Shown one piece after another: positions 1-46,400 of a stretch of DNA of 64,000 nt; position 1 is the stretch's first letter; each line of letters starts with the position of its first letter. The stretch comes from Candidatus Fibrimonadaceae bacterium (lineage in GTDB: Bacteria > Fibrobacterota > Fibrobacteria > Fibrobacterales > Fibrobacteraceae), in NCBI GenBank assembly GCA_031281155.1, contig JAITFT010000084.1, forward strand, positions 1-64,000. Reading direction: 5' to 3'. The notes under the pieces were generated by a model, which did no database searches, was not told the origin of the DNA, and was given only the letters and a program-made list of their open reading frames with translations. The position numbers and the translations under genes are program-made.

Positions 1-833
1 TTCCTGTTTCAAATAAATCGCGAACACGGCTTGCGCCAACGCCCACAAACATTTCAACAAAATCTGAGCCGCTCATGCTGTAAAAATTAACGCCAGCTTC
101 GCCGGCTACGGCTCTTGCCAAGAGCGTTTTTCCTGTGCCCGGCGGCCCAACCAACAGCACGCCTTTTGGAATGCGCCCTCCCAGTTTATCGAATTTCTTT
201 GGGTCTTTTAAAAAAGAAACCAACTCTTCCAAATCGGCTTTTGCTTCGTCGCAGCCCGCTACATCTTTGAATGTGGTTTTGTTTTTATCGTTGTTTATTA
301 AAATCGCCTTGCTTCTGCCAAATGAAAACAAGCCTCTACCACCGAATCCGCCAGCTTGCCGCGCCATTATAACCCAGAACAGAATTATAATTAAAATTAA
401 GGGCAAGAATGCAAAGAGGTGGTGCAGCCAGGTATTTTCCTCGCGCATAACCATTACTATTTTGCCGCTCTCTTCCCATTGGGCAATGGTGGAATCTGGA
501 ATGTATAGCATATTGGAGCGGAATGGCTCAAGGTCTGAGGGCAAGGCTTCCTGGCCAAAGAAACTTGGTTTGGCGGGCTTTGGCTTTTCGTTTGGAGATA
601 GTTTGCGTTTTCCGATTATTTCAATTCCATCTGAAGTTTTACGCAGTTTGAGCGTATCTATTCTAGCTGTGGGGTCTGCCATCCAGGCAATGAACTGAGT
701 GCGGGAAACTTCTCTTATTGGCTCATCGGAATATAGCCTAAGAAGAACAAGAGCAAACAAGCATATTGCCGCTATGAGAAAAAAATTCTTTGGCGGTGGT
801 TTTGGGCTTTTCGGTGGTTCCGGTTTTTGCATG
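1..833 (-). CDS. ftsH: ATP-dependent zinc metalloprotease FtsH (3' part outside window)
   Basis: Only the first 277 codons are present; the gene runs off the left edge. The translation starts at ATG 833 and shows a basic, proline-rich N-terminus, a membrane segment near residues 15-33, a periplasmic stretch, a second membrane segment near 145-165, then the start of the AAA domain ([12 protein letters not shown], Walker A GPPGTGKT near residue 228, and [17 protein letters not shown]). This order is specific to FtsH, the membrane-anchored protease for misfolded and short-lived proteins. The zinc-protease domain would lie outside the window. A -10-like TACATT (complement of 842-847) ends 8 nt before the ATG and there is no Shine-Dalgarno sequence, so the mRNA is probably leaderless. 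Confidence 0.96.
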
Positions 834-867: not shown

Positions 868-1872
868 GTGAAATTATTTTCTTTAATTGCTCTTTTGTTG
901 GCTGGTTGCGTGTCTAATACGGCGAAGCAGCCAATTTCTTTGGCAGAAGCTTTGGATTCTGTTGAATGCAAAAGCGGTGAGTTTCGCGGCGCGGGAATTG
1001 GAGGTAGCGAGAACGAGGCGTTGAGTGTTGCACGTTCTGCGCTTGCGAAGCAGGTGCATTCATCAGTGAAAGTATCAGACGAATACCGCCTGAGTCGGAG
1101 TGTTTCTGGCGGAAAAGAGGATTTGAGTTCCGAATCTAAATCTGAACTTGTGGTGGAAGCTGCTTTGCTGAATGCACACGATGCACGTGTGCAGCATACG
1201 CAACGGAGAGCAAATGAAACAGGCATTGTTGTTTGCATGAGCCGCACAGATGCCGCTAAGGGCTTTACGGAACGGCAACGCTTTATAACGGACTCTCTGA
1301 AAATAGTTTCTGCGATTGTTAGCACCGAACATCCTAAGCGCAAAAATGAAGCTTGGCATAAAACACAAACGCTTTGGTATGAGTTTATGAGAATTCAAGA
1401 TCTGCTGGAAGGCTGGGGCGTTGCGAAAACAGATTTTTTTGTTTCTGCAAATGAAGTTTATGCTAAAACCGAGAACTATTATAAAAACTATTGCAAAAAT
1501 CAGAAAACCTATTGGGAGGCTCCTGCAAGCGAATGCGCTAATATTGTTTTCGCAGGGTTGTTTGAAAGGATAAAAATCACAAAAGAAGATGCCGAGTGCC
1601 AAAACGGGCTGAGACTGCGTTTCTCCTGTAACGATAGATGCAGGTCATCTTCTTTTGGAGTGGAATGTTTACTTGAGCCATCTTTGGCAATTGAATCTTG
1701 CAACGGCGCGCACTACTCTTTGCTAAAAGCCAAGGGGCCTACGACAGGCAACGATATGCACAGCGAAATCAAGGCTAAGGAAAATTTAATGCGGAATTTG
1801 CCCAAAGCGAGTTTTTTTAATGAATGGGAAAAGGAAATTAGGGAATGGGTGCCACAGTGCGTGGTGCAGTAG
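868..1872 (+). CDS. Predicted lipoprotein, LPP20-like N-terminal region
   Basis: 334 residues with a GTG start. The N-terminus is a lipoprotein signal (short basic start, hydrophobic run, lipobox LLAGC near residues 10-14), so it is probably anchored to a membrane facing the periplasm. Residues about 40-75 contain a GxGxGxSExEAxxxARxxLAKQ pattern resembling LPP20-type lipoproteins, where a repeatedly seen alanine-rich helix follows a glycine-rich strand. The rest is Cys-containing and unrecognised. The GTG lies 6 nt after a TACATT hexamer with no Shine-Dalgarno, so initiation is probably leaderless. It is transcribed divergently from ftsH; no function can be assigned from context. Confidence 0.8.
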
Positions 1873-1900
1873 TTCAAAAAAAATAACGATTAATGATAAT

Positions 1901-1910
1901 TTTCTATATT
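1901..1910 (+). promoter_or_regulatory. Promoter of tRNA-Leu and downstream genes
   Basis: TTTCTATATT, with the TATATT hexamer at 1905-1910, ends 20 nt before the first base of the tRNA. Since a tRNA has no start codon, this is the best independent evidence in the window that the TTTCTAyATT motif is a promoter rather than a translation signal. Confidence 0.65.
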
Positions 1911-1930
1911 ACCGCACACACATCAAAAAT

Positions 1931-2014
1931 GCCGAAGTGGTGAAATTGGTAGACGCGCTGGACTCAAAATCCAGTAGAGGCAACTCTGTGGGGGTTCGAT
2001 TCCCCCCTTCGGCA
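1931..2014 (+). tRNA. tRNA-Leu (anticodon CAA)
   Basis: A class II tRNA with acceptor stem GCCGAAG/CTTCGGC, a D-arm, an anticodon stem CTGGA/TCCAG around the loop CTCAAAA (anticodon CAA at 1965-1967), a long variable arm and a T-arm with GTTCGATTC. The discriminator base is A and CCA is not encoded, so a CCA-adding enzyme would be required. The next protein gene starts only 27 nt downstream with no promoter between them, suggesting a joint tRNA-mRNA transcript. Confidence 0.95.
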
Positions 2015-2041
2015 CTAAAGTCTTCTATAGAGAGGTATCTT

Positions 2042-2671
2042 ATGAAATTTTTAGTCCCGGCTCTTTTACTCTGCGCAACGCTCGCCTTTGCCCAATTCGA
2101 CTTCGATGATGATGAATGGGCAAATTTTGACTTTCGCCATGCAGGTCTAACTCAAATCGAATTCCAAAACGTTAAGGAATCCGGAATGGGCAAAGAAAAG
2201 CTTATGTACCTGCTAGAGATAGGTATCCGCCCATCCACTTACCTGCAAGAGCCCTGGAAAAATCTCGGCGTATCTGAAAGCGAATGGCTCTCTCAGCGCG
2301 AAAAGGGAATGGAAGACGCCGACATAGATCGCACATATAGAAACTACGGCGGCGACCAAAGCGCAGCTTATTTATCTTTCTTGATACCATCGTACTACCA
2401 CTGGAAAACGGGTGACATGGCTATGGCTATGGCAATAGATATCTTGTGGCTTACATCCGTAGGCGTAACCGTGTTTTTATGGAATAAAGGAAGCACCGAC
2501 AACCAATGGGTTTACGGAGCTGGGGCAATAGGCCTTGTTCATATATTCTCCGGAGCAACAGCCCTGCTCTCAACTCAATGGGATAACAATCCCGATGCCA
2601 GAAACTTCTCGTGGGGCATTTTGCCAACGGGCAAAAATTCCGTTGCCGCTGCCGCCGCCTTTAGGTTCTAA
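2042..2671 (+). CDS. Exported membrane protein of unknown function
   Basis: 209 residues. The ATG at 2042 is chosen because it starts a clear signal peptide (hydrophobic core followed by AFAQ) and has AGAGG upstream; the reading frame is open further 5' but that stretch runs through the tRNA. The mature protein has an acidic start (FDFDDDEW), a charged middle, and two hydrophobic segments near residues 128-145 and 155-172. The C-terminus ends in an alanine run and FRF, as in small outer-membrane or envelope proteins. No family recognised. It shares a transcript with tRNA-Leu and is followed directly by the oxidoreductase gene. Confidence 0.8.
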   Translation: MKFLVPALLLCATLAFAQFDFDDDEWANFDFRHAGLTQIEFQNVKESGMGKEKLMYLLEIGIRPSTYLQEPWKNLGVSESEWLSQREKGMEDADIDRTYRNYGGDQSAAYLSFLIPSYYHWKTGDMAMAMAIDILWLTSVGVTVFLWNKGSTDNQWVYGAGAIGLVHIFSGATALLSTQWDNNPDARNFSWGILPTGKNSVAAAAAFRF

Positions 2672-3625
2672 GTGGCTAAAAAATTTCGCTGGGGAATCAC
2701 AGGTACAGGCTTTATAGCAAGATCCTTTGCCTCCAGCTTAAAGCTTCTGCCAAACGCAGAACTCTATGCCGTTAGCTCCCGCAATGCCGAAACAGCAAAA
2801 AAATTCGCAAATGAATTCGGAGCGAAAAAGCATTATAATTCAAGAGATAAAATGCTTGAGGATGAAGCTCTAGACATTGTATATATAGCAACGCCGAATC
2901 ACTGCCACGCCCCAGACTCAATAGCTGCTCTTAACGCAGGCAAAGCCGTTCTCTGCGAAAAACCTTTTGCCCTTAGCTCCGCAGAACTGGAAAGCGTGAT
3001 TGCTGTTGCGAAAAGCAAAAATCTTTTTTTAATGGAAGCCCTCTGGACAGCCTTTTTGCCGAGCTTCAAAAAATTTATAGAACTCGCAAACAATGGCTCA
3101 ATAGGTGAACCAACATTATTGAATGCAGACTTTGGCTTCTACTCGCAGTTCAATCCAAACAGCCGCCTTTACGACCCGAAACAAGGCGGCGGTTCCATTT
3201 ACGATATAGGAATTTACCCGCTATTTGCCGCTCTCTCTCTCTTTGGCGAACCCGAAATTTTGCAAACAATAAAAATTCCAAGCCTCACAGGAACAGATGT
3301 TACCGCACTCATTCAAAGCCAGCATAAAAACGGCAAAGTCGCAATGCTCGCATCATCTTTCGCCGTTGACTTAGATACCGAAGCTAAGCTTTACGGCACA
3401 AAAGGCAAGCTTACGCTTCACAAAAGCTTTCACATACCAACAAAACTCACGCTCCAAAACGAAAAAGGAACTTTCGATTTTGAATTCCCGGAACCTGGCA
3501 AAGGCTACCAATACGAGGCCGCTGCAGCAATGGCAGCAATGGAAGAAGGCTTAACGGAATGCCCCGAATGGAATTTGGAACAAAGCAGAGCATTGATGAG
3601 AATGATAGACAGCTGCTTAAAATAA
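2672..3625 (+). CDS. Gfo/Idh/MocA-family NAD(P)-dependent oxidoreductase
   Basis: 317 residues, GTG start immediately after the TAA of the preceding gene (translational coupling likely). The N-terminal Rossmann fold has GITGTGFIA at residues 8-16 and the family motif CEKPF at 95-99, in which the lysine is catalytic. The C-terminal half has the GGGSIYDIGIYPL segment typical of the substrate-binding domain. Members oxidise or reduce sugars, sugar derivatives or dihydrodiols; the trans-dihydrodiol dehydrogenase/YcjS-like subgroup is the closest by pattern. The substrate cannot be told from the sequence. Confidence 0.9.
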   Translation: MAKKFRWGITGTGFIARSFASSLKLLPNAELYAVSSRNAETAKKFANEFGAKKHYNSRDKMLEDEALDIVYIATPNHCHAPDSIAALNAGKAVLCEKPFALSSAELESVIAVAKSKNLFLMEALWTAFLPSFKKFIELANNGSIGEPTLLNADFGFYSQFNPNSRLYDPKQGGGSIYDIGIYPLFAALSLFGEPEILQTIKIPSLTGTDVTALIQSQHKNGKVAMLASSFAVDLDTEAKLYGTKGKLTLHKSFHIPTKLTLQNEKGTFDFEFPEPGKGYQYEAAAAMAAMEEGLTECPEWNLEQSRALMRMIDSCLK

Positions 3626-3626
3626 A

Positions 3627-4052
3627 TCAAGAAAAATCTCTTATAATACACCACCAAGCGATAAAGCCAAATGCTGAAATTCCTGCAAATATGGCAACTA
3701 TGCAAAACCAAACGATGTCAAAATTCAAATTAAAACTCGGCAGACTCCACCCGCTTTCTTTTATAACAGCTTCTGCTGGCCTATGTTTTATAACGGGAGG
3801 CTTATAATTTTGCGGCTTTTTCTTTTCATCTTTATATGGATCTATCCAATCATATAATTCATAGGTCTCGCCATTTTCAAAGCCAAAGGGAATGACGTTT
3901 TTGTTAATGTGATTTATAAATGTTATTTTGCTACCAATTGACTCCTGCAATTCAATCAAATACTTGGATATAGCTTCCACGTATTGCCTGTTTGCATCTG
4001 AACCACCCACTCTGCTAATAAGCGTTCGTTTAATAAACTCCTGACTCACCAT
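3627..4052 (-). CDS. Small protein with a C-terminal membrane anchor
   Basis: 141 residues, not recognised. Residues 1-70 look like a small soluble domain, residues 70-100 are a lysine/proline-rich linker (KDEKKKPQNYKPP), and residues about 112-137 form one hydrophobic membrane segment rich in Trp and Phe, giving a tail-anchored layout. The start is ATG GTG: the ATG lies 4 nt after the -10-like TATATT and the GTG 7 nt after it, so the GTG may be the real leaderless start. It converges with the oxidoreductase gene, 1 nt apart. Confidence 0.7.
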   Translation of the reverse strand: MVSQEFIKRTLISRVGGSDANRQYVEAISKYLIELQESIGSKITFINHINKNVIPFGFENGETYELYDWIDPYKDEKKKPQNYKPPVIKHRPAEAVIKESGWSLPSFNLNFDIVWFCIVAIFAGISAFGFIAWWCIIRDFS

Positions 4053-4056
4053 TGGG

Positions 4057-4076
4057 AATATAGAAATTTCTATATT
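4057..4076. promoter_or_regulatory. Divergent back-to-back promoter pair
   Basis: AATATA-GAAATTTC-TATATT, a perfect 20-bp palindrome. The leftward hexamer serves the small membrane protein; the rightward hexamer at 4071-4076 serves the FISUMP lipoprotein through a short leader. Confidence 0.65.
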
Positions 4077-4093
4077 AGCAACAGGAAGGTAAT

Positions 4094-4123
4094 ATGGCGT
4101 TTAACATTGGAGTTTATTTGTGA
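4094..4123 (+). CDS. Possible 9-residue leader peptide
   Basis: ATG at 4094 preceded by GGAAGG (4084-4089) opens a frame of nine codons (MAFNIGVYL) that stops in TGA at 4121-4123, overlapping the GTG start of the FISUMP gene at 4120. This has the layout of a translationally coupled leader ORF. It could equally be chance, with the GGAAGG serving nothing. Confidence 0.35.
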   Translation: MAFNIGVYL

Positions 4124-4884
4124 TTTTAAGATTTTTCTTTGTTTTGCCTTTCCTGCTTTTAGCGTGTACGCAAGTGGAGCGTGATAATATTTACGATCCT
4201 GGCGGTATTAATTATTATTGTAGAGAGTGCTATTACTCTTCCAGCTCATCTTCATCCAGTAGCTCCTTTAATTATTCTTCCAATTATTCTTCCAGTAATA
4301 ATATTTCATATTGTAGCGGCATTGAATATAATACTTTAACTGAATTTTGCCTTGATGGCATTGTTAAATATAAAGAAGCCATTATTGATTCCAGAGATGG
4401 CAAAGCATATAAAATTACTGTTATAGGTTCTCAAATCTGGATGGCAGAAAATTTACGGTATGAAACTTCAAACACTAAATGCTTTGATAACGATCCAAAT
4501 AATTGCGATATTTACGGCATATTATACGATTGGAATACAGCAAAAATTATTTGCCCGTCTGGCTGGCATTTGCCAAGCGATGCGGAATGGATAGCGCTAG
4601 CATGGTTTGCTGGTAGCAATGCCGGAACAGAATTAAAAGCAAATACCGGGCACTGGATTTCAAACAAAGGAACCGATAATTTTGGCTTTACTGCTCTGCC
4701 AGGCGGGTTTTATTATGATCGTTTTAGACAAAAAGGAGAAGTGGCAGGCTTTTGGAGCGCAACAGCAGGCTCCCAATCAGGCTCCGCTCATTTTCGATAT
4801 TTTACAAATATTAACTCTAGCCTAAACTTAGCTGGTCATTATACAAACAGAGCTTGGTCTTATGTCCGCTGCCTAAAAGATTAG
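4120..4884 (+). CDS. FISUMP-domain surface lipoprotein
   Basis: 254 residues. A lipoprotein signal (LLLACT near residue 13) is followed by a poly-serine linker at about 40-60, then a FISUMP domain (Fibrobacter succinogenes major paralogous domain): QIWMAENLRY, a CPSGWHLPSDAEW block, FTALPGGFYYD, GFWSAT and the terminal VRCLKD. The domain is related in pattern to C-type-lectin/FGE-like folds and is amplified in Fibrobacter; its function is not established. Serine linkers of this kind are common in secreted Fibrobacter proteins. Start is GTG with TTGGAG upstream, overlapping the stop of a possible leader peptide. Confidence 0.92.
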   Translation: MILRFFFVLPFLLLACTQVERDNIYDPGGINYYCRECYYSSSSSSSSSSFNYSSNYSSSNNISYCSGIEYNTLTEFCLDGIVKYKEAIIDSRDGKAYKITVIGSQIWMAENLRYETSNTKCFDNDPNNCDIYGILYDWNTAKIICPSGWHLPSDAEWIALAWFAGSNAGTELKANTGHWISNKGTDNFGFTALPGGFYYDRFRQKGEVAGFWSATAGSQSGSAHFRYFTNINSSLNLAGHYTNRAWSYVRCLKD

Positions 4885-4913
4885 CCTTCTATAAAATGAT
4901 ACTCATCGAAGGC
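4884..4913. terminator. Possible bidirectional terminator hairpin
   Basis: GCCTTC (4884-4889) and GAAGGC (4908-4913) can pair across the convergent gene ends, with ATGAT/TCAT pairing inside the loop. There is no clear T-run, so this is weak. Confidence 0.3.
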
Positions 4914-6705
4914 ATTCCTCCAACTCAACGCTTGCCCTCTCCCACTCTGCAAACAAATCGGCAACTTGATTTTTTGCGAATTCCATCTCTTTCGATATTT
5001 CCGCAATTTTCAAGCCATTGCCTTCTTCGGCAGCGGTGACTATGTTTTTTTCGCACTCGGCAATAAAGCTTTCTTTCTGCTGAATTTCGGCTTCTATCTC
5101 TTTGATTTTTTGCTCCAATGGGCGGACTATGCGAGACTTTTGCTGGATTTGCTCGGCACGCTCTCTTTTGGTCGCTAGCCGCTGATTAACTACCGTTTTT
5201 TTTACTGCCATTTCCGCAGCCCAACCTACACGATCCAAAAAATCCTGATAAGTGCCGTCAAAAAATTTGGCTTTGCCTTTATCAAAAATAATTAAGCGCT
5301 TAGCAAAAGCGTGGAGAATTTCTTCATCGTGGCTAACCAAAATTGCCGCACCTTTGAATTCATCAAGAGCTTCGATTAAGCTATCAACAGAATCCATGTC
5401 AAGATGGTTTGTTGGCTCATCGAGCAAAAGCAGATTGCATGGCTTGCCTAAAATTTTTGCCAGCAAAACTCTGGAACGCTCTCCGCCAGAAAGCACGGAG
5501 ATTTTCTTTAAAGCGTTGTCGCCCTCAAACATCATAACGCCTGCCAAGGAACGGGCTTTTCCCCTAGTTCTGTCTTCGAGCGAAGATTGAATTTCTCCTT
5601 CCACGGTTTTTTGCAAGTCCAAACGATTTACATTTGTTTGACCAAAATAATTTATAACTGTGCTATTGTGAAGTTCAATGCTTCCTTCCTTAGATTTTAA
5701 TTCTCCTGCCAGCAAGTTTAAAAGCGTGGTTTTTCCTTTTCCGTTTGGGCCAATAATAGCGAGGCGGTCTCCTTTGTACAATTCAAAATTTAAATTTTCC
5801 ATCAAAGGCAAATCTGCAGTGAAACCAAAACTCAAATGCTTAACGGTTAACATTCTTTTGGCGGGAAAATCTGCTTCTGTGAATTCAAAATCAAGAGTTT
5901 TTATCTTTTCCAAATTTGCAAGCGGTTCGTGCCGCTCAAGAGCTTTCACCTTGCTCTGCACAGATTTTGCCTTTGAAGCCTTGTATCTAAACCTTTCAAT
6001 AAATTTCTGCAAATGCTCTCGCTTTGCTGCATCGTTTTCCAAGGTTTTTAAATGCACTTCTTCGTCTGCCAAAATTGTTTCTTGAAGTTTTGCCACGCTG
6101 CCACGGATTTTCCGCATTTTTTGCCTGTGAATGCCAAGGGTATGAGTGCAAACGCTATCCATAAAGCGGCGATCGTGAGTTATTAGCATTAATTCGCCTT
6201 GCCAGCTTCTTAAAAATTTTTGCAACCATCGCACGGAAACTATATCTAAATAATTTGTTGGTTCGTCTAGCAAAAGCAAATTCGGTTCAGCAGCCAAAGC
6301 CTTTGCTAAATTGAGGCGAATTTGAAAACCGCCAGAAAGCATTGCGGGTGATTCTTTTTCAACTATATCTTTATCAAAACCCAGCCCGCTTAAAATAGAT
6401 TCTACTTTGTAGCTTTCAACCCAGCCATCTTCATTTGGTTTTAATGCGGAGCAGGCTTCTTCAAAAATCGTGGCATGAGCAAAATTCAAATGCTGTGATA
6501 AGTACCCTATCGAATAATTTTTCGGAATGTTTATACTGCCAGAATCATAGCCTTCTTCGCCTAAAATAACCTTAAAAAGCGTTGATTTTCCGCTGCCATT
6601 TCTCCCCACAAGGCCAATGCGCTCTCCTTTGCCAACCTGAAAGCTTGCATCGCTAAACAGCATTTGCAATCCAAAACTTTTCTGTAAATCTTGAGCTTGA
6701 AGCAT
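4903..6705 (-). CDS. ABC-F family ATPase (Uup/YheS-like)
   Basis: 600 residues with two ABC domains and no membrane segment. Domain 1 has Walker A GRNGSGKST at 34-42, signature LSGGF at 122-126 and LLLLDEPTNYLD near 142-153. Domain 2 has GPNGKGKTT, LSGGERSR and LLLLDEPTNHLD. The charged linker between domains and a C-terminal coiled coil (about 510-600) are typical of ABC-F proteins, which act on ribosomes rather than in transport. Which paralogue it is (Uup, YheS or EttA-like) is not clear; the C-terminal coiled coil favours Uup/YheS. ATG lies 8 nt after a TATCTT hexamer, with no Shine-Dalgarno. Confidence 0.92.
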   Translation of the reverse strand: MLQAQDLQKSFGLQMLFSDASFQVGKGERIGLVGRNGSGKSTLFKVILGEEGYDSGSINIPKNYSIGYLSQHLNFAHATIFEEACSALKPNEDGWVESYKVESILSGLGFDKDIVEKESPAMLSGGFQIRLNLAKALAAEPNLLLLDEPTNYLDIVSVRWLQKFLRSWQGELMLITHDRRFMDSVCTHTLGIHRQKMRKIRGSVAKLQETILADEEVHLKTLENDAAKREHLQKFIERFRYKASKAKSVQSKVKALERHEPLANLEKIKTLDFEFTEADFPAKRMLTVKHLSFGFTADLPLMENLNFELYKGDRLAIIGPNGKGKTTLLNLLAGELKSKEGSIELHNSTVINYFGQTNVNRLDLQKTVEGEIQSSLEDRTRGKARSLAGVMMFEGDNALKKISVLSGGERSRVLLAKILGKPCNLLLLDEPTNHLDMDSVDSLIEALDEFKGAAILVSHDEEILHAFAKRLIIFDKGKAKFFDGTYQDFLDRVGWAAEMAVKKTVVNQRLATKRERAEQIQQKSRIVRPLEQKIKEIEAEIQQKESFIAECEKNIVTAAEEGNGLKIAEISKEMEFAKNQVADLFAEWERASVELEECLR

Positions 6706-6713
6706 TTATGAAT

Positions 6714-6719
6714 AAGATA
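6714..6719 (-). promoter_or_regulatory. -10-like element of the ABC-F gene
   Basis: TATCTT on the minus strand, preceded by TTTAC and ending 8 nt before the ATG. It lies just beyond the mltD stop codon, so the ABC-F gene can be transcribed separately from mltD. Confidence 0.5.
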
Positions 6720-6731
6720 GTAAACGCTGAT

Positions 6732-8672
6732 TTAATCCGAAATTTTGATTTTCATGCCCGGAAAAATTTTCTTATCCAAACCAGGATTCCAATCTAATAG
6801 CTGCTGAACGGTTACATCGTGGGCTCTAGCTATATCCCACAGGTTATCGCCAGATTTCACAATGTAACTTGCACCGCTTATTGCTTTATTTGCGTGGGTT
6901 TGAGTTTGGGTGTCTCTTTGTTGAGTGTTCGTGCTTTGAGCTCTTTTAGGATCTTGCAAAAAAAGCTGTTGACCTGCTCTAATTCTGTTGTCTTCCAGAT
7001 TATTCCAGCTCTTTAAATTTTGCATTGAAACGCCGAACCTTCTGGAAATAGTGCCGAGATTATCACCGTTTTTAACAAGGTAAGTGCGCACATTGCTTTC
7101 GGAACGCGTAGTTTGCGTATTTTCGTTACGCGTACCTGTTGAGGCTTGCCTTTGATTGCCCGGAGGGCTGGCTCCATGAGGCATGGGGATAATTAAAACT
7201 TGCCCAACTCTGAGCCTTGTGTTTTGCAAATTATTCGCTGATTGAATATCGGCGGCTTTTAAACCAAAAACTCTTGCTATGCTGCCAAGGTTATCGCCTT
7301 TTTGCACTTTGTATTGCTGCCAGCGTACCAATTGCGTTTTATCCATTTTTTCGTAAGCGGCAAGAAATTTTTCTCTAGTACCTTGCGGAATATTCATTGT
7401 GTATTGCTTTAGGTTTGGCGGTGTGCTCCAGCGAGTTAGCTCTGGGTTTAAATCGCGCATGGTATTAACGCTTGCACCAATTGCACTGCCAATTTTATCT
7501 AGAGGAATTCCATCTTTAACGGTTACTGTATCAAAAGGAAGAACGCTTCGTTTTTCAACTGTGAATGAATAACGCTCAGGGAAATGCCCTATGATTGTTG
7601 CGGCTAAAATTCTCGGTACGTAGAGCATTGTTTCTTTGGGCAATTGCAAATCCCAATAGGAAACTTTTTTCAATGTGGAGTCTGCAGCCTTTGCTTCTCT
7701 TACAAGCCTGCGAATTCTGCCTTCTCCGCAGTTATAAGCTGCCATTGCCAGGTACCAATCGTCAAATTCTCTGTATAAATCAGAAAGGTATCTCAGAGCG
7801 GCATCGGTGGCGGCTTCGGGATTATAGCGCATATCCCGCCAGAAATCTATCGACAAGCCGTAGCGTTTGCCTGTTGCAGGAATAAACTGCCACACACCTG
7901 CTGCCTTAGCTTTGCTGTAAGCACGCGGTTTAAAACCGCTTTCCACAAGAGCTAGATATACAAGGTCTTCGGGCATATTGCGTTTGCGAAGTTTTGCGAA
8001 GATCATGCTATCTAGCGTGGTTTTTCTAGAAAGCGAGCTTTCCATAAAAGACCTAGCGTTCACGGTAAGAAAGCGAATTTCTCGCATAACGCGATCGTTG
8101 ATTTCAATAGGAAGTGAAAACCTGGCTAAATTCATTGTATCTAAAAAATTCTCAATAACTTTTTTTTCCACGCTATCTAGCGGAGCTTCTTCAAATGAAT
8201 CAAAGCCTTCGTAGTCGCTTAGTATTGAAAAAACGTGTTCTGCTTCTGCCAAATTAATGAGCATTGGATATACTCTCTCCAATGCTGAAATAATGCGAGC
8301 AGGCATTGTGGCAAAATACTCGGCGCTATCCGGGCTTGCCAGAGAATCTGCCTGTTGCTCCGAATGAACTTCGCCCAAAGCCATATCGAAATAGTACATG
8401 GCAGCTAAAGGATCGCCAGTCTCTAGAGCCTGCACTCCAGACTTGAACTCTGCCCAAGATATTTTGCCAGCCGCACCCTTAGGCTCATTTAAGTCTATTC
8501 GCGCTGGCAAGCGCTTTACAGGTGCTTCGGGCACCTGCACAGAAGGAGCTGGCTCCTCTGGCTCTGCAAGTACAATAAGTTCGTTTCCTTTGTTTGTTGC
8601 CGAGCAAGCAACGAATAGAGGAAACATTAACGAAAGTATTTTTAATCTTTTAATCATCATCCTCTTCTTCAT
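6732..8672 (-). CDS. mltD: Membrane-bound lytic transglycosylase D-like lipoprotein with three LysM domains
   Basis: 646 residues. A lipoprotein signal ends in FVACS near residues 20-24. A central SLT domain (about 225-400) shows the catalytic glutamate in ALVESGF (E244), AAGVWQFIPATGKRYGL and MAAYNCGEGRI. Three LysM domains follow, starting near 460, 535 and 602, each with (V/K)xGDNL. It would cleave the glycan strands of murein in the periplasm, LysM modules giving wall binding. The start overlaps the end of the small acidic gene by 23 nt; ATGs four or five codons further in are alternatives, since the frame begins MKKRMMIK. Confidence 0.93.
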   Translation of the reverse strand: MKKRMMIKRLKILSLMFPLFVACSATNKGNELIVLAEPEEPAPSVQVPEAPVKRLPARIDLNEPKGAAGKISWAEFKSGVQALETGDPLAAMYYFDMALGEVHSEQQADSLASPDSAEYFATMPARIISALERVYPMLINLAEAEHVFSILSDYEGFDSFEEAPLDSVEKKVIENFLDTMNLARFSLPIEINDRVMREIRFLTVNARSFMESSLSRKTTLDSMIFAKLRKRNMPEDLVYLALVESGFKPRAYSKAKAAGVWQFIPATGKRYGLSIDFWRDMRYNPEAATDAALRYLSDLYREFDDWYLAMAAYNCGEGRIRRLVREAKAADSTLKKVSYWDLQLPKETMLYVPRILAATIIGHFPERYSFTVEKRSVLPFDTVTVKDGIPLDKIGSAIGASVNTMRDLNPELTRWSTPPNLKQYTMNIPQGTREKFLAAYEKMDKTQLVRWQQYKVQKGDNLGSIARVFGLKAADIQSANNLQNTRLRVGQVLIIPMPHGASPPGNQRQASTGTRNENTQTTRSESNVRTYLVKNGDNLGTISRRFGVSMQNLKSWNNLEDNRIRAGQQLFLQDPKRAQSTNTQQRDTQTQTHANKAISGASYIVKSGDNLWDIARAHDVTVQQLLDWNPGLDKKIFPGMKIKISD

Positions 8673-10099: not shown

Positions 10100-11695
10100 A
10101 TGAAACAACTACTCCCTATCGGCATTCAGGATTTTGTGGACATTCGCGAGCAAGGTTTTGTTTATGCAGACAAAACCGCGCGTATCCATGAACTTATAAC
10201 TGGCTCCGGCAAACCGTTTTTCCTTTCCCGCCCTCGGCGGTTCGGGAAATCGCTCTTGTGCTCAACGTTAGAAGCTATTTTCGAAGGCAGGCGCGAACTG
10301 TTCGGCGAGATTGCAGGGCGGCCAGCTTTGGCTATTAACTCGCTTGACTGGGCGTGGAAAAAGCACCCAGTGATAAGGATTGATTTGAATGTGGGAGACT
10401 ATATAAACGGGGGAGCGGAAGAGCTTCATGAGACATTGCGCTGTGAATTGCAAGAGCAGGCAGAAAGGCACGAGGTTGAGCTGATAGACACAAATATTGC
10501 CAATCAATTCAAATATCTTATAAGAAAGGTATCTGAAAAGGCTGGCGAAAGGGCAGCAGTGATTATCGATGAATACGATGCCCCGCTGCTCGATACTGTC
10601 AGCAACGCTGCTGCCCATGAAGAAGTCAGAAGCAAGCTCAAAGGCTTTTACAGCGCTTTAAAACCATCCGACAAATATTTGCGTTTTTTATTCTTAACCG
10701 GTGTGACCAAATTCTCCAAAGTAAGCGTGTTTTCAGACTTAAACCACTTGATTGACATGACCCTCGATCCACGCTACGCTGATATCTGCGGCATCACGCA
10801 GGAGGAATTAGAGCGAAACTTTGGCCCGGCGATAGATGAAGTTTTGGAGAAAACCAGCAGGAACAGGGAAGAATACATGGAAAACCTACGCCAATATTAC
10901 AACGGCTACAGATTTTCGGAAAAGCCGCTTAAAGTGTACAATCCTTTCGGTCTGCTCAATCATTTTGACAAAGGCGGTGATTTTTCCCCCTATTGGTATG
11001 AAACCGGCACTCCGAATTTTTTGATAAAATTGATTATGGACCAAAAAATAAACATTGTCAATCTGAGCGATATGCAGGTTAGGCACGAAGATTTCCGCAA
11101 ATACGATGTAGAAAACATGAGAGCAGAACCAGTGCTGTACCAAAGCGGGTATTTGACGATAACAGATTACGATGAAAACAGAAAACGCTATATCCTTGAT
11201 TTCCCTAACACAGAAGTGCGCTCCTCCCTTGCAACATCCATGCTCCAGCAGTACCTTCAAGTTCCGGCAGACAGGTCGCGCGCTCTTATTTTCAAGTTGC
11301 CAGATTCTCTTGAAGACGGCGATATTGAAGGTGCGATAGAGGCTATACGCCAGTATATGGCGGGTGTTCCCTACGACATCATTAAACAAACGGAAAACTA
11401 CTATGAAACCGCAATATTTTTGATGTTCAAAATGTTCGGTCTCAATTGCCGCTCGGAATTACGAATCGCTGATGGGCGGATAGACACGCTTGTCGAGACT
11501 AAAAATTTCGTTTACTGCTTTGAATTCAAAATAGACAAAACCGCCGATGAAGCATTGGCGCAGATAGATACGAAAGAGTATCTGCTGCCATGGACTGGGA
11601 GCGGGAAGAAGTTGTTTAAGGTGGGCGTTAATTTCGACAGCGAGAAACGGAATATTGGGGATTGGAAATATTTATCAAATTTTCAGATTCCGTAG
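10100..11695 (+). CDS. AAA-ATPase-like / PD-(D/E)XK nuclease family protein (copy 1)
   Basis: 531 residues. The N-terminal half is the AAA-ATPase-like domain of the PF09820 type: FVDIREQGFVYADKT, a P-loop FLSRPRRFGKSLL near residues 36-50, and Walker B VIIDEYDAPLL near 155. The C-terminus carries a PD-(D/E)XK nuclease-like domain (PF08011 type) with CFEFKIDKTADEALAQI, where E-x-K is the metal-site motif. The family is heavily amplified in gut Bacteroidota and Fibrobacterota and its function is unsettled. There is no Shine-Dalgarno and no convincing promoter upstream. It is a distant paralogue of the protein at 12754; no flanking repeats were found for this copy. Confidence 0.9.
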   Translation: MKQLLPIGIQDFVDIREQGFVYADKTARIHELITGSGKPFFLSRPRRFGKSLLCSTLEAIFEGRRELFGEIAGRPALAINSLDWAWKKHPVIRIDLNVGDYINGGAEELHETLRCELQEQAERHEVELIDTNIANQFKYLIRKVSEKAGERAAVIIDEYDAPLLDTVSNAAAHEEVRSKLKGFYSALKPSDKYLRFLFLTGVTKFSKVSVFSDLNHLIDMTLDPRYADICGITQEELERNFGPAIDEVLEKTSRNREEYMENLRQYYNGYRFSEKPLKVYNPFGLLNHFDKGGDFSPYWYETGTPNFLIKLIMDQKINIVNLSDMQVRHEDFRKYDVENMRAEPVLYQSGYLTITDYDENRKRYILDFPNTEVRSSLATSMLQQYLQVPADRSRALIFKLPDSLEDGDIEGAIEAIRQYMAGVPYDIIKQTENYYETAIFLMFKMFGLNCRSELRIADGRIDTLVETKNFVYCFEFKIDKTADEALAQIDTKEYLLPWTGSGKKLFKVGVNFDSEKRNIGDWKYLSNFQIP

Positions 11696-11740: not shown

Positions 11741-12757
11741 ATGTCTAAACCAATATCCTTAACTGGCATTAAGCCAACGGGAACTCCGCACCTGGGGAAT
11801 TACCTGGGTGCGATAAAACCCGCTCTGGAACTCAGAGAAAAATACAGCACTGTTTATTTTATAGCAGATTACCACGCCCTAACAACTGTGCACAACAGAG
11901 AAGAAATGCGCGGCAATATCTACAAAGTTGCAGCTACATGGCTTGCCCTAGGGCTTAACCCCGAAGAAGGACTATTCTACAAACAAAGCGATATACCAGA
12001 AATTTTTGAGCTTTCGTGGCTGCTCTCATGCTTCACTCCAAAGGGATTTATGAACCGCGCCCACGCCTACAAAGACAAGGTCGCAAAAAATCAGGCAGCG
12101 GGCTTAGATGCCGATGACGGCGTTAATATGGGGCTTTATTGCTACCCATGCCTTATGGATGCAGATATTCTAATGTTTAAATCAAATATAGTTCCTGTTG
12201 GCAAAGACCAAAAACAACACGTGGAATTTAGCCGCGACATAGCAGAGCGTTTTAATAAACATTACGGCAAAAATATTTTTGTTTTGCCAGAGCCGGTTAT
12301 TCAAGCAGAAACAGATATTATCCCCGGGCTGGACGGCCGCAAAATGAGCAAGTCTTACGACAACACAATAGATATTTTTTTAGGGCCAAAAGAATTAAAG
12401 GCAAAAACCGGAAAAATCGTAACCAACAGCCAGTCAATAGAAGAACCTAAAGAACCCGAACAATGCAATGTATTCGCTTTGTATAAACTTTTCGCAAACA
12501 AAGAGCAAGCAGCTGCCTTGGCAGAACGTTACCGCGCAGGCGGAATGGGCTGGGGGCACGCAAAAGAAACTTTGCGCGAACTCTTGGAAGAGCACCTTGC
12601 AAAGCCAAGGGAAAAATACAACGCTCTCCTAGCAGACACAACGCAAATAGATAAAATCCTCGCTTACGGCGCAGAAAAAGCAAGAGCATTCGCAAAGCCC
12701 TTTATGCAAGAAATCAGAGATACTATAGGGATTACAACTAGTGAGGTTGTGCTATGA
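11741..12757 (+). CDS. trpS: Tryptophanyl-tRNA synthetase
   Basis: 338 residues, the usual length for bacterial TrpS. The class I HIGH-type motif is TGTPHLGNYLGA near residues 11-22 and the KMSKS loop is GRKMSKSYDN near 200; GKDQKQHVE is also conserved. It charges tRNA-Trp. ATG is 6 nt after TACTTT. The last seven codons (TTSEVVL) lie in a 21-bp sequence repeated downstream of the next gene; with the downstream copy the protein would end TTSEAVLT, which suggests its 3' end was displaced by an insertion. The stop codon overlaps the start of the AAA-ATPase gene (ATGA). Confidence 0.96.
   Translation: MSKPISLTGIKPTGTPHLGNYLGAIKPALELREKYSTVYFIADYHALTTVHNREEMRGNIYKVAATWLALGLNPEEGLFYKQSDIPEIFELSWLLSCFTPKGFMNRAHAYKDKVAKNQAAGLDADDGVNMGLYCYPCLMDADILMFKSNIVPVGKDQKQHVEFSRDIAERFNKHYGKNIFVLPEPVIQAETDIIPGLDGRKMSKSYDNTIDIFLGPKELKAKTGKIVTNSQSIEEPKEPEQCNVFALYKLFANKEQAAALAERYRAGGMGWGHAKETLRELLEEHLAKPREKYNALLADTTQIDKILAYGAEKARAFAKPFMQEIRDTIGITTSEVVL
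12734..12754 (+). repeat. Left 21-bp direct repeat (trpS 3' end)
   Basis: Differs from the right copy only at one T/C position (GAGGTTGTG versus GAGGCTGTG). It encodes the last residues of TrpS, and its final A is the first base of the next ATG. Confidence 0.85.
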
Positions 12758-14367
12758 TGCCCAAAAAGAAACCTCGCATAGATTTAAGCAGCAGCGAGTT
12801 TGCTCATTACATAGAGAAAAAATTGCTCTATGTGGACAAAAGCATGTTCATAGAGCATTTTATGGATAACCCAAGCAAGGTTCTCCTAATCACCCGCCCC
12901 CGCAGAATGGGCAAAAGCCTCAACATGAACATGCTTGCGGAATTTCTAGACTGCCAAAAAAACTCCGGGCACTTGTTCAAAGGATTGAAGATTGAAAAAA
13001 GGAAAATGTTCAAGGAGCATTTGAATAAATATCCTGTTGTGTATTTGACTTTCAAGAATTTGCACATAGACGACTATAAGCTGTCTATCAAGCAAATGTT
13101 TATAGATGCCGCAGATAAATACATACCAAAAGAAAAGCGGACCGCTTTCGTGAAAGATTTTATCACAAACAAGAAAAATGTCCAAGTAATGGGCATTCGA
13201 TATATTTTACAAAACATAAGCGAAGTGTATGGTAAAAATCCTGTTGTGCTGATAGATGAATACGATAAAATTTTAATGGACAATATTAAAAGCAAGGAAT
13301 ATGAAAATCTGCGAAACTATATATCTGGCGTTTTCAACTCCGGCTTCAAAGACAATCCCTATTTGCACAAGGCTTTGCTAACCGGCGTTTTAAGAATCAG
13401 CCAGGAGAGCATATTCAGCAATTTGAACAATGTAGAAGTCTTCGATGTATTTGCCAAGAGCGAGTTCGACGAAGATTTCGGATTAACCGAGAAAGAGGTT
13501 AAAGCACTTGTAGAACCGAAAGATTTTAAGATTGTCAAGAGATGGTACGATGGAATCCGCGTAGGAAATTCTTACGTATTTTACATATATTCCGTAATGT
13601 ACTTTTTATCCAAAGGCGAGATTTCCAACTACTGGGGCCAGAGCGGCACCATAAACTTGCTTGGCGATTTGCTCACTCAGAGCAAGGCTCTGTGCCTAGG
13701 CGAGGCTGTAAAGAAGTTCGGCAACACATTCACCACGGAGCTTGATCCAAGAGTCTCGCTGAAAGAGCTTTTTTCCGACAAAGAGGATAAATACTACTAC
13801 GCCCTTGCGGTGCAGGCCGGCTACCTTGCTTGGAGCGAAGCTGCAGGCAGCAAGCCCGGAAAGAGGCTTTACAAACTATGCGTTCCCAACGAGGAGCTTA
13901 TGATGGTTTGGGAGGAGTATATTCTAAGCTCTATAGTAAAGAAAGCAGAGCAGAGCAGGCTTGCGGAGGCTTTCGAGGAAATAGAAGACACAGAATATTT
14001 TGGCAAGGAATTAACGGAGCTTCTTTCTTATAAGCTTTCTTATTTTGATTTGCACGATAATTTGGAAAAAACCTATCATGGTTTTGTTTTGGGTTTAATG
14101 GTAGCTCTTGGCTTTGATGTTCGTTCCAATAACTCGGCTGGCGCAGGCCGTTATGATTTATTTATAGAAACGAAAAAGTGGACCGCCGTTGTGGAGTTCA
14201 AAGTTTCCAAAACTGCAAGGGGCATAAAGGAAGCAATTAAAGATGCTTTAGCTCAAATTGAGCGAAAGAAATACCTTGCCAGCGCAAGCAAAAAGAAGCC
14301 CGCTTATGCCATTGGCGTGGGCGTGCACAAGAATGACGCTGAAGTTTTATGCGAGAGGGCGTGGTAG
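12754..14367 (+). CDS. AAA-ATPase-like / PD-(D/E)XK nuclease family protein (copy 2)
   Basis: 537 residues. Same architecture as the protein at 10100: FAHYIEKKLLYVDKS, P-loop LLITRPRRMGKSLNM near residues 43-57, Walker B VVLIDEYDKILMD near 166, and a C-terminal nuclease-like domain with RYDLFIETKKWTAVVEFKVSKTA, where D and E-x-K are the expected metal ligands. Sequence similarity to copy 1 is limited to these motifs, so they are not a recent duplication. The start overlaps the trpS stop (ATGA; a second ATG follows at once), so translation is probably coupled. The gene is bracketed by 21-bp direct repeats, suggesting it arrived as a unit. Confidence 0.9.
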   Translation: MMPKKKPRIDLSSSEFAHYIEKKLLYVDKSMFIEHFMDNPSKVLLITRPRRMGKSLNMNMLAEFLDCQKNSGHLFKGLKIEKRKMFKEHLNKYPVVYLTFKNLHIDDYKLSIKQMFIDAADKYIPKEKRTAFVKDFITNKKNVQVMGIRYILQNISEVYGKNPVVLIDEYDKILMDNIKSKEYENLRNYISGVFNSGFKDNPYLHKALLTGVLRISQESIFSNLNNVEVFDVFAKSEFDEDFGLTEKEVKALVEPKDFKIVKRWYDGIRVGNSYVFYIYSVMYFLSKGEISNYWGQSGTINLLGDLLTQSKALCLGEAVKKFGNTFTTELDPRVSLKELFSDKEDKYYYALAVQAGYLAWSEAAGSKPGKRLYKLCVPNEELMMVWEEYILSSIVKKAEQSRLAEAFEEIEDTEYFGKELTELLSYKLSYFDLHDNLEKTYHGFVLGLMVALGFDVRSNNSAGAGRYDLFIETKKWTAVVEFKVSKTARGIKEAIKDALAQIERKKYLASASKKKPAYAIGVGVHKNDAEVLCERAW

Positions 14368-14377
14368 TAAAATCTTA

Positions 14378-14398
14378 ACAACTAGTGAGGCTGTGCTA
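14378..14398 (+). repeat. Right 21-bp direct repeat (holB 3' end)
   Basis: Contains the holB stop codon (complement of 14382-14384) and its last codons on the minus strand; on the plus strand it continues in the trpS frame to TAA. Confidence 0.85.
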
Positions 14399-15311
14399 AC
14401 CTAAGCGCCATGTTTTGAATAGCGTGCTCTGCCGTAAACTTTTTCGCAAGCATTGCCTGCAAAAGAAAATGCACATTGTGCATATGGTGCCCCTGCTTTA
14501 TTTTTAGCAAGTAAATAGCCAAGCCCTCTAAAAAAAACGCCACTGTGTTTATAGACTTATCTAAGCTTTGAGCGCATAAAATTGCCGAAGAAACATCGCC
14601 CTTTAAAGCGTAGTTTGCGTATTCAGAGATTTTTTCTTTAAGCGAGGAATAATCGGAATCTATGGCAAACATTGCTTTGCCCGCTGAACCGGCAGCAAAA
14701 TCCAAAATATCATCTGATGCAGAAGAATATCCATAAGTTGCCAGAACTTTCGCAAGCTCTTCGTTGCTTAAAAAAGGAACAGAAAAACATGTTGAGCGAG
14801 AGCGCACGGTTGGCAAAAGAGAATACCTTGAATTTGCCGTTAATATAAAATAGGTATTTGGCGGAACTTCCTCAAATGTTTTTAAAAGTTTATTCGCCGC
14901 TTCTTCATTCATTAAATCTGTATTCGTTATAATCACAGCACGGTTCCCGCCGGCTTTTAGCGTGAAATTCTGGAGCAGATGCAACACCATTCCAACAGAT
15001 ATAATTGCAGATTCCGTGATATACCCAATGTGAAACGGGTTTTGTATAAATTTTTGCGATAACTCGGTTACTTTAGAATCTATTTTCGCAGGAGTGTCTC
15101 TGTCTTCGGCTTTGCCATCTATGGGGGTGAGCCAAATAACAAGCTCGGAGCTATGCTCGCAGAGCATCTTTGCCAACTCCGTAGCGAGAAGTTTTTTGCC
15201 AATGCCAGCTGGCCCATCTAAAAGCAACATTTGCGGAAAACGCCCTTGCTCAAAAGCGTTCTTCAGGGCACCCCAAACCGGCATCATCTGCGCAGGCATA
15301 TTAAATCCCAT
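14382..15311 (-). CDS. holB: DNA polymerase III delta-prime subunit-like clamp-loader ATPase
   Basis: 309 residues. Walker A is GPAGIGKK near residues 34-41; conserved clamp-loader segments are NEEAANKLLKTFEEVPPNTYFIL (sensor region) and LLPTVRSRSTCFSVPF (a variant of the SRC motif, with S in place of C). Delta-prime loads the sliding clamp as part of the gamma complex. The zinc-binding cysteines of many bacterial DnaX/HolB proteins are not obvious here. It overlaps the end of tatD by 11 nt, a familiar holB-tatD pairing, and its 3' end lies in the 21-bp repeat. Confidence 0.88.
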   Translation of the reverse strand: MGFNMPAQMMPVWGALKNAFEQGRFPQMLLLDGPAGIGKKLLATELAKMLCEHSSELVIWLTPIDGKAEDRDTPAKIDSKVTELSQKFIQNPFHIGYITESAIISVGMVLHLLQNFTLKAGGNRAVIITNTDLMNEEAANKLLKTFEEVPPNTYFILTANSRYSLLPTVRSRSTCFSVPFLSNEELAKVLATYGYSSASDDILDFAAGSAGKAMFAIDSDYSSLKEKISEYANYALKGDVSSAILCAQSLDKSINTVAFFLEGLAIYLLKIKQGHHMHNVHFLLQAMLAKKFTAEHAIQNMALRLAQPH

Positions 15312-44701: not shown

Positions 44702-44721
44702 AATGTAGAAATTTCTATATT
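44702..44721. promoter_or_regulatory. Divergent back-to-back promoter pair
   Basis: AATGTA-GAAATTTC-TATATT. The leftward hexamer is 7 nt from the PilZ-protein ATG; the rightward hexamer (44716-44721) is 11 nt from the recJ ATG. Confidence 0.65.
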
Positions 44722-44732
44722 ATATATCCTAC

Positions 44733-46400
44733 ATGGCAAAAAGTTTATCATTGGAAATAGCGAAAAGGCATAAGGTTTCTATACTTCTGGCTCGGCTTTT
44801 GGTTTTGCGGGGAGTTAAAACTCCAGAAGAGGCAGATAATTGGCTGAATTGGGATATGCCTTGCGAGCACAGCCCATTTTTGCTTAAAAATATAGACAGA
44901 GCAATAGAGCTTGTTGTAGAGGCTAAGAAAAATAAAAAAAATGTTTGGGTTTATGGCGATTACGATTTAGACGGTATTTCTGGCACGGCTATTTTAGTCG
45001 GTGCACTTGGCGATTGGGGGTTGCCTGCAAGCTGGATGCTTCCAAACCGCTTTAACGGAGGCTACGGGCTTTCAACAAACGCTCTTCAAAAAATGAAAGA
45101 TGCCGGAGCCGACTTTTTAATTTTAGTAGATACCGGCATAACTGCAAGAGAAGAAATAAAGGCAGCAAAAGAACTCGGAATGCAGGTTTTGGTTATAGAC
45201 CACCACAAGCCCTCCGGTGAGGGCTTGCCAAATGCAGATGCTATATTAGATCCCTTTTTAGAAGGCTGCGAATACCCAAATAAATCCCTGTGCGCCGCAG
45301 GGGTAGCATATAAATTTTTAGATGCCCTCTACCAAAAAACAGGCAAGCCTTTAAGCGATTTAGAGCGATATTTGCCCATGGTTTCGCTTAGCACTCTTGC
45401 AGATATTGTTCCTTTAAGCCCAGAAAACATTTCTTTAATTCGAAAGGGAATGATTAAATTTTCAAACTCCGATTGCCTCTCTATTCAAGTGCTATACGAA
45501 AAAATTGCAATAGATAAAAATTTTGTAACCAGCAACGATATGCACTATCGCATGGCTCCGCTTTTGAATGCTCCAGGCAGAATGGAAAGCCCCGATGCCG
45601 CTCTCAATTTTCTCTTGTGCAAAAGCAAGGAAGAAATAGAGAGCCTGTATAACAAGCTCGTAGAGTGCAACACAGAACGCAGGGTAATGGAACTGGACAT
45701 TCATAAATACGCAATTAAAAGGCTTGGAGAAATTTACGGCGATAATTTGCCAAAGGTTTTGATAATAGACTCACTGGAATGGAATATAGGCATTATAGGA
45801 ATAGTAGCGGCACGCATGGCGCAAGAACACAGGCGGCCAACGGCTATAATTTCCGTTCAAAGCGATGGAATCGCCACTGCAAGCGCTCGCTCTGCCGGCT
45901 CGTTTAATTGGCACGGAGCACTTTATCCATGCAGAGATATTTTCATTCGCTGGGGCGGGCATGTTAAAGCCGCAGGCTTTAACATAGCGGCAGAAAAAAT
46001 AAACGAGCTTAGAACCCGCATGGAAGAACAAGCCGATATTCAAGATTTTGTGCCTTCGCCAGAAGAAGCCAGCCATTACGATTTGGAAGTTTCGCTCGCT
46101 GAAATCAATATGAATTTCTTGAACGAGTTAAGAAAGTTGGAACCCTTTGGAAACGAAAATCCCTACCCTATATTCCTGGCAAGGCAGGTTTTAGTGAGAA
46201 ACCTAAAGCCTTTAACAGGCGGCCACCTGCGCTTTTATGCGGTGCAGGGCCGCACCTCAATTGTCGCTATTGCCTTTAACAAACCTCATTTGGCAGGAGC
46301 ACTCCAAAAAGGCACTGTAAATTTAGTCTTTGAAGCTCGTCGCAACATTTACAAAGAAATAGAAAGCGTTCAGTTGATTGTGCATGGAGTGATGGAGTAA
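44733..46400 (+). CDS. recJ: Single-stranded-DNA exonuclease RecJ
   Basis: 555 residues, typical length. Motifs of the DHH phosphoesterase fold: VWVYGDYDLDGISGTAIL near 71, LILVDTGITAREE, VIDHHKPSGE near 158 and the DHHA1 region with ARSAGSFNWHGAL and RWGGHVKAAGFNI. It degrades single-stranded DNA 5' to 3' in recombination and repair. No Shine-Dalgarno; -10 element 11 nt upstream. It ends in a convergent junction with a small lipoprotein. Confidence 0.95.
   Translation: MAKSLSLEIAKRHKVSILLARLLVLRGVKTPEEADNWLNWDMPCEHSPFLLKNIDRAIELVVEAKKNKKNVWVYGDYDLDGISGTAILVGALGDWGLPASWMLPNRFNGGYGLSTNALQKMKDAGADFLILVDTGITAREEIKAAKELGMQVLVIDHHKPSGEGLPNADAILDPFLEGCEYPNKSLCAAGVAYKFLDALYQKTGKPLSDLERYLPMVSLSTLADIVPLSPENISLIRKGMIKFSNSDCLSIQVLYEKIAIDKNFVTSNDMHYRMAPLLNAPGRMESPDAALNFLLCKSKEEIESLYNKLVECNTERRVMELDIHKYAIKRLGEIYGDNLPKVLIIDSLEWNIGIIGIVAARMAQEHRRPTAIISVQSDGIATASARSAGSFNWHGALYPCRDIFIRWGGHVKAAGFNIAAEKINELRTRMEEQADIQDFVPSPEEASHYDLEVSLAEINMNFLNELRKLEPFGNENPYPIFLARQVLVRNLKPLTGGHLRFYAVQGRTSIVAIAFNKPHLAGALQKGTVNLVFEARRNIYKEIESVQLIVHGVME

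Follow-up and report, generated by a model that had tools for sequence, protein, structure and literature searches.

How did a single gene encoding an AAA+ ATPase / PD-(D/E)XK nuclease come to lie between trpS and holB, enclosed by a 21-bp direct repeat and with both neighbouring genes preserved? The locus belongs to a window of 64,000 nucleotides, the whole stretch of DNA that was analysed, from a Candidatus Fibrimonadaceae bacterium. The first-pass annotation had proposed that the gene entered the junction singly, with duplication of its target, and that members of its family may spread as mobile units. The repeats that it described, of consensus ACAACTAGTGAGG[T/C]TGTGCTA, were recovered with 20 of 21 positions identical and clean edges (Table 1). 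A pattern search of the whole genome allowing up to three mismatches returned the two sites as sole matches, neither occurring on the other strand, and 21-bp repeats were absent from 100 shuffles of the window. Since the genome holds two copies only, the repeat is ruled out as the end of a dispersed element. Comparison of the 60-bp flanks gave a similarity score of 18, as against a best score of 13 among 20,000 simulated pairs. The 21-bp repeats are real and not a product of chance. Chance similarity or an assembly artefact is scarcely credible as an account of the locus: although the assembly is a draft metagenome and several copies of the family are located at contig ends, the observed score was never reached by simulation, the repeat copies are unique and both sit within an 83.7-kb contig, and trpS and holB are both intact, as the first-pass annotation had maintained.

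Table 1. Coordinates of features at the trpS-holB locus, and other genes flanked by local repeats.
Feature	Location	Strand	Description
Distant family member	10100..11695	+	26% identical to the ORF at 12757-14367; adjoins trpS on its upstream side; no flanking repeat
trpS, intact	11741..12757	+	C-terminal tail TTSEVVL encoded by left repeat
Left repeat copy	12734..12754	+	ACAACTAGTGAGGTTGTGCTA; contiguous with native trpS
Inserted unit	12755..14377	+	1623 bp: TG, ORF and TAAAATCTTA
AAA+ ATPase / PD-(D/E)XK nuclease ORF	12757..14367	+	PF09820 and PF08011, from domain matches; start possibly 12754
Right repeat copy	14378..14398	+	ACAACTAGTGAGGCTGTGCTA; one mismatch; contiguous with holB; holds holB stop (14382-14384)
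holB, intact	14382..15311	-	DNA polymerase III delta' subunit; convergent with insert
L142 (G000:C2)	181-832		32 bp around truncated DUF1016/PDC-S02 gene
L215 (G000:C31)	1812-7719		28 bp exact around 5.9-kb island: type II RM pair and Mpi-type serine recombinase
L222			21 bp exact around PIN gene, between hom and lipoprotein-like gene
L233			33 bp around DUF559 gene
L117 (G006)			34 bp exact, from truB start, around YafQ toxin-antitoxin pair
L107 (G006)			44 bp from mnmG end
L186 (G026, control genus)			36 bp from hsdS start (5' end), around PDC-S27 ATPase gene

Both repeats finish with (T/C)TGTGCTA, 8 bp that match the native end of holB when read as the reverse complement. In the left copy, these bases are TTGTGCTA, which on the holB strand read as the 3' codons ...(T)TA GCA CAA. 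All 10 congeneric genomes with holB share the end ...(L/M/I)AQ, with CAA as the last shared codon, and have recJ next in order, within a few bases of that end. The left repeat, located 1.6 kb from holB, keeps the CAA codon of the relatives, and the right copy has CAG. Because holB of the congeners shares this end, including CAA, the TTGTGCTA bases of the left repeat derive from holB. Comparison with congeners also showed that the left repeat runs directly on from the native trpS end, ...GI. The native end of trpS thus runs straight into bases derived from holB, which indicates that the ends of the two genes were joined before the insertion, and we therefore infer that joining came first and insertion second at trpS-holB. 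A source was thereby found for 8 of the 21 bp of the repeat and none for the other 13 bp.

The trpS-holB neighbourhood was unique to the source genome among the genomes compared, no congeneric genome that gave a match to trpS or holB having the two genes side by side; an empty trpS-holB site was accordingly absent from the relatives. The predicted join for the empty trpS-holB site is GGGATTACAACTAGTGAGGYTGTGCTAACCTAAGCG. If the unit and one repeat were removed, trpS would end with GITTSE(A/V)VLT, followed by a TAA stop at 14402-14404. The tidy convergent junction foreseen by the first-pass annotation was correct for this trpS ending and incorrect for the stops, which do not overlap: TAA is separate from the holB stop, and it is the two genes that would overlap, by 23 bp. 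At present, the trpS stop TGA (12755-12757) is made up of TG from the insert plus the first base of its start codon.

Gene order is strongly scrambled in the genus, and the genes downstream from trpS are many and varied among congeners. The recJ gene, otherwise a constant neighbour of holB, was located at 44733-46400 in the window, about 30 kb from holB and in the opposite orientation. It is unlikely that the repeat was itself born in the rearrangement that united trpS and holB, by duplication associated with an inversion or a break, the ATPase gene being carried along. Such an origin would be in keeping with the new neighbourhoods of both genes, with the displacement and opposite orientation of recJ, and with the inversion-associated duplication known in Helicobacter (cited in PMC3874152 and PMC3120642). 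However, copies would then be expected at the two far ends of the inversion rather than as a tight direct repeat around one gene, no holB remnant was seen beside recJ, and trpS is already joined to holB-derived bases in the left repeat, implying that the junction came first.

The repeats enclose the ORF plus 2 bp on its left and 10 bp on its right, in agreement with the earlier description of an ORF and about 10 extra bases. The unit harbors no transposase, integrase, or recombinase, its single ORF being devoid of a transposase domain, and no terminal inverted repeats were seen at its ends. It is very unlikely that an integrase supplied in trans brought the unit in by site-specific integration at a shared att core represented by the repeat. 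The position of short direct repeats at the 3' ends of genes does recall attL and attR, but each site compared has its own repeat sequence, the one at trpS-holB does not recur in the genome, and the unit is without integrase or recombinase.

The ORF comprises 536 codons from the ATG at position 12757 and matched AAA-ATPase_like (PF09820) and PDDEXK_9 (PF08011) above the Pfam cut-off, with 124.7 and 53.3 bits, respectively. The Walker and PD-(D/E)XK motifs are present, as RPRRMGKS, DEYD, and D...EFK...Q, read by eye against the description in PMC1913061. DNA homology to paralogues begins at the ATG and runs to the stop codon only. Comparison with three paralogues gave dN/dS ratios of approximately 0.09-0.17 (dN of 0.14-0.25 and dS of 1.0-2.0, the latter near saturation); on the basis of these low ratios, the ORF behaves as a working gene. 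Similarity among paralogues was much lower in the AAA region at 13061-13345 (ORF bases ~308-592) than elsewhere, which suggests mosaic exchange or a fast-evolving specificity region.

Close copies of this ORF, fragments included, number about a dozen in the source genome; there are also a few distant ones, one of which is located on the other side of trpS, so that trpS is bracketed by family members (Table 1). The approximately 10 close paralogues have unrelated flanks, DNA similarity being confined to the ORF. Outside the source genome, close copies were detected in just two congeners, G004 and G010, and include a tandem pair in the latter (L125, G010:C136) with the stop/start overlap TGATG. 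In several copies, the ATG is immediately preceded by a sequence similar to TTTTCTATCTTATCC, which resembles a motif preceding many other genes of the genus. TTTTCTATATT or TTTTCTATCTT occurs a few bases before the ATG of many genes (44712-44740; L035, L013, L097, and others). This arrangement suggests leaderless transcription from a promoter typical of the genus.

The first-pass annotation had called for a search for direct repeats at other copies of the family. Flanks were compared for 42 family copies in two genera, one tandem case being set aside to leave about 41 non-tandem copies with readable flanks. Clear flanking repeats were detected at two of these, the window copy and L284, and possible ones at L280. 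The remaining copies, about 38 of 41, showed none, although old repeats would have decayed. By chance, 28 bits were attained in 4 of 1722 flank cross-pairings, corresponding to ~0.1 expected among 42. In Fibrobacter G081 (L284), the gene is preceded by a degraded duplicate of the ~200-bp start region of the secretin gene that comes after it; the duplicate now consists of two stretches, one of 64 bp and one of 51 bp. In G096 (L280), an exact 14-bp repeat is located 10 bp past the stop and about 50 bp ahead of the likely start. A 16-bp repeat at L106 (G004) was discounted as part of a GGGCGAAA palindrome with a further copy nearby, and the repeats at L125 and L130 were rejected as target duplications since they belong to tandem paralogues. 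Target duplication was also rejected as a family-wide rule, most copies being without repeats. Thus, the family can be inserted with target duplication, but this signature is not its rule.

Isolated direct repeats were sought in three sets of sequence: ~1 Mb from the source genome, 0.27 Mb from its congeners, and 0.4 Mb from a control genus. Each set gave about 20 per Mb, and the density was no higher in the source genome (22 per Mb) than in the control genus (20 per Mb). Raw counts were therefore rejected as a sign of a lineage-specific process: with an equal density in the control, counts alone prove nothing. Many matches of the scan were coding repeats, palindromes, or contig-end effects; the cases listed in Table 1 were picked by eye and read singly, most repeats from the automatic scan being something else. 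Several repeat pairs surround a gene-sized unit and copy the end of an adjacent gene; BLAST detected no further full copies of the repeats read first. L204 was not counted as a clean case, its repeat falling within one chimeric PDC-S01 gene; L174 is uncertain, further dispersed similarity following its repeat; and L144 was set aside, part of its repeat partially matching another contig.

The truncated DUF1016 ORF of L142 ends with EKRTLRVAVR, a duplicate of MRTLRVAVR, the apparent secretion-tail end of the upstream gene. At L215, the repeat duplicates the 3' end of a phosphopantetheinyl transferase gene. The two genes that flank the PIN gene of L222 adjoin directly in G010 and are near each other in some other congeners. 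For L186, the joined-flank query matched G039 without interruption, with one copy of the 36 bp and ~99% identity across the join; judged by sequence, G039 is a true empty site for this hsdS insertion. Duplications span 21 bp at trpS-holB, 21-52 bp at most other sites, and ~200 bp at L284. These duplications of target sequence around single accessory genes of this bacterial family are real. They represent an insertion mode common to many accessory genes and are not specific to the PF09820-PF08011 family.

It is quite unlikely that the AAA+ / PD-(D/E)XK protein moves its own gene, by cutting the target with a long stagger and having the gene copied in, as a one-ORF transposon-like element. The confinement of homology to the ORF among close paralogues, the target duplications at two, perhaps three, independent copies, and the AAA or PD-(D/E)XK nature of several other genes with the signature are points in favor of such an element. 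However, repeats are absent at most copies, the duplication length varies widely (from 21 to ~200 bp), there are no conserved ends or terminal inverted repeats, and PIN genes, YafQ toxin-antitoxin genes, and an RM island carry a like signature. Slightly less probable still is the general proposition that the PF09820-PF08011 protein catalyzes its own insertion, the family being a class of one-ORF transposons without terminal repeats that generates duplications of 20-200 bp. The idea that the family spreads as mobile units is therefore supported in part only: two or three of about 41 copies are flanked by repeats, most have none, and unrelated genes share the signature.

The single ATPase-nuclease gene was probably inserted into an existing trpS-holB junction by 'insertion with long target duplication', the machinery being most likely generic. 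A rearrangement would first have joined the ends of trpS and holB into a convergent junction. The single AAA+ / PD-(D/E)XK gene would then have entered this junction with duplication of 21 bp, leaving each neighbour with a complete 3' end, the insert providing a new stop for trpS. The anatomy of the repeats, the holB bases in the left copy, and the proven empty site for a similar insertion all agree with the single-gene insertion and duplicated target put forward at the outset. The insertion machinery would not be encoded by the ATPase-nuclease gene: a generic process is likelier than self-mobility of the nuclease because different sites carry unrelated cargo and no ends are shared among the units.

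The same mode of insertion is known from Helicobacter pylori, in which RM genes were inserted 'with long target duplication' (Nobusato et al., 2000, Gene 259:99; as reported in PMC1643837, PMC3874152, and PMC4978471). The Helicobacter inserts and those described here are gene-sized units lacking a transposase and terminal repeats, enclosed by a direct duplication of the target that varies in length among our sites, with selfish or defence-type cargo and rearranged surroundings. The L215 island carries a type II RM system, the original Helicobacter cargo. In contrast to Helicobacter, for which duplications are of the order of 100 bp, the duplication was 21 bp at trpS-holB, mostly 21-52 bp elsewhere, and ~200 bp at a single site; the cargo is an AAA+/PD-(D/E)XK gene, and the host belongs to a termite-gut Fibrobacterota lineage. 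In Arabidopsis, too, non-transposon genes that have moved often lie between direct repeats of host sequence, which are also present at the orthologous empty site (PMC2869330), although this is a eukaryote with another recombination background. Insertion sequences and DNA transposons also duplicate their target; unlike them, the present unit has neither a transposase nor terminal inverted repeats, and its duplication is longer than usual and of variable length. Expansions of the DUF1703, or PF09820-PF08011, family have been described in Cardinium cCpun (PMC6387759) and in PMC1913061. These reports indicate the same domain architecture, multiple copies in one genome, recombining or mosaic copies, and many copies at contig ends; recombination and horizontal transfer are discussed for Cardinium (PMC6387759), and neither an insertion mechanism nor flanking repeats are mentioned in the sections consulted of the two reports.

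As to how a target might be duplicated over variable lengths, template switching during replication or repair, or fill-in of a staggered break, would suffice, and selection in such compact genomes would retain those insertions that leave the ends of neighbouring genes unharmed. This combination is our guess at the mechanism. No Ku gene was found in the genus (12 genomes), which argues against classical non-homologous end joining; Ku-dependent end joining thus looks unlikely.

The trpS-holB insert is best read as another instance of an established mode of gene insertion, not as a new transposon. The PF09820-PF08011 family joins the genes that enter genomes singly by duplicating their target, and toxin-antitoxin, RM, PDC, and nuclease genes of one bacterial family have this insertion signature in common. 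If self-insertion were true, the large PF09820-PF08011 family, including some single-gene phage-defence candidates, would be a one-ORF transposon class. A flanking target duplication provides a simple mark by which recent acquisitions of single genes can be found, and it makes an old question testable, namely, which machinery, in bacteria lacking Ku, introduces bare genes while duplicating a long piece of the target.
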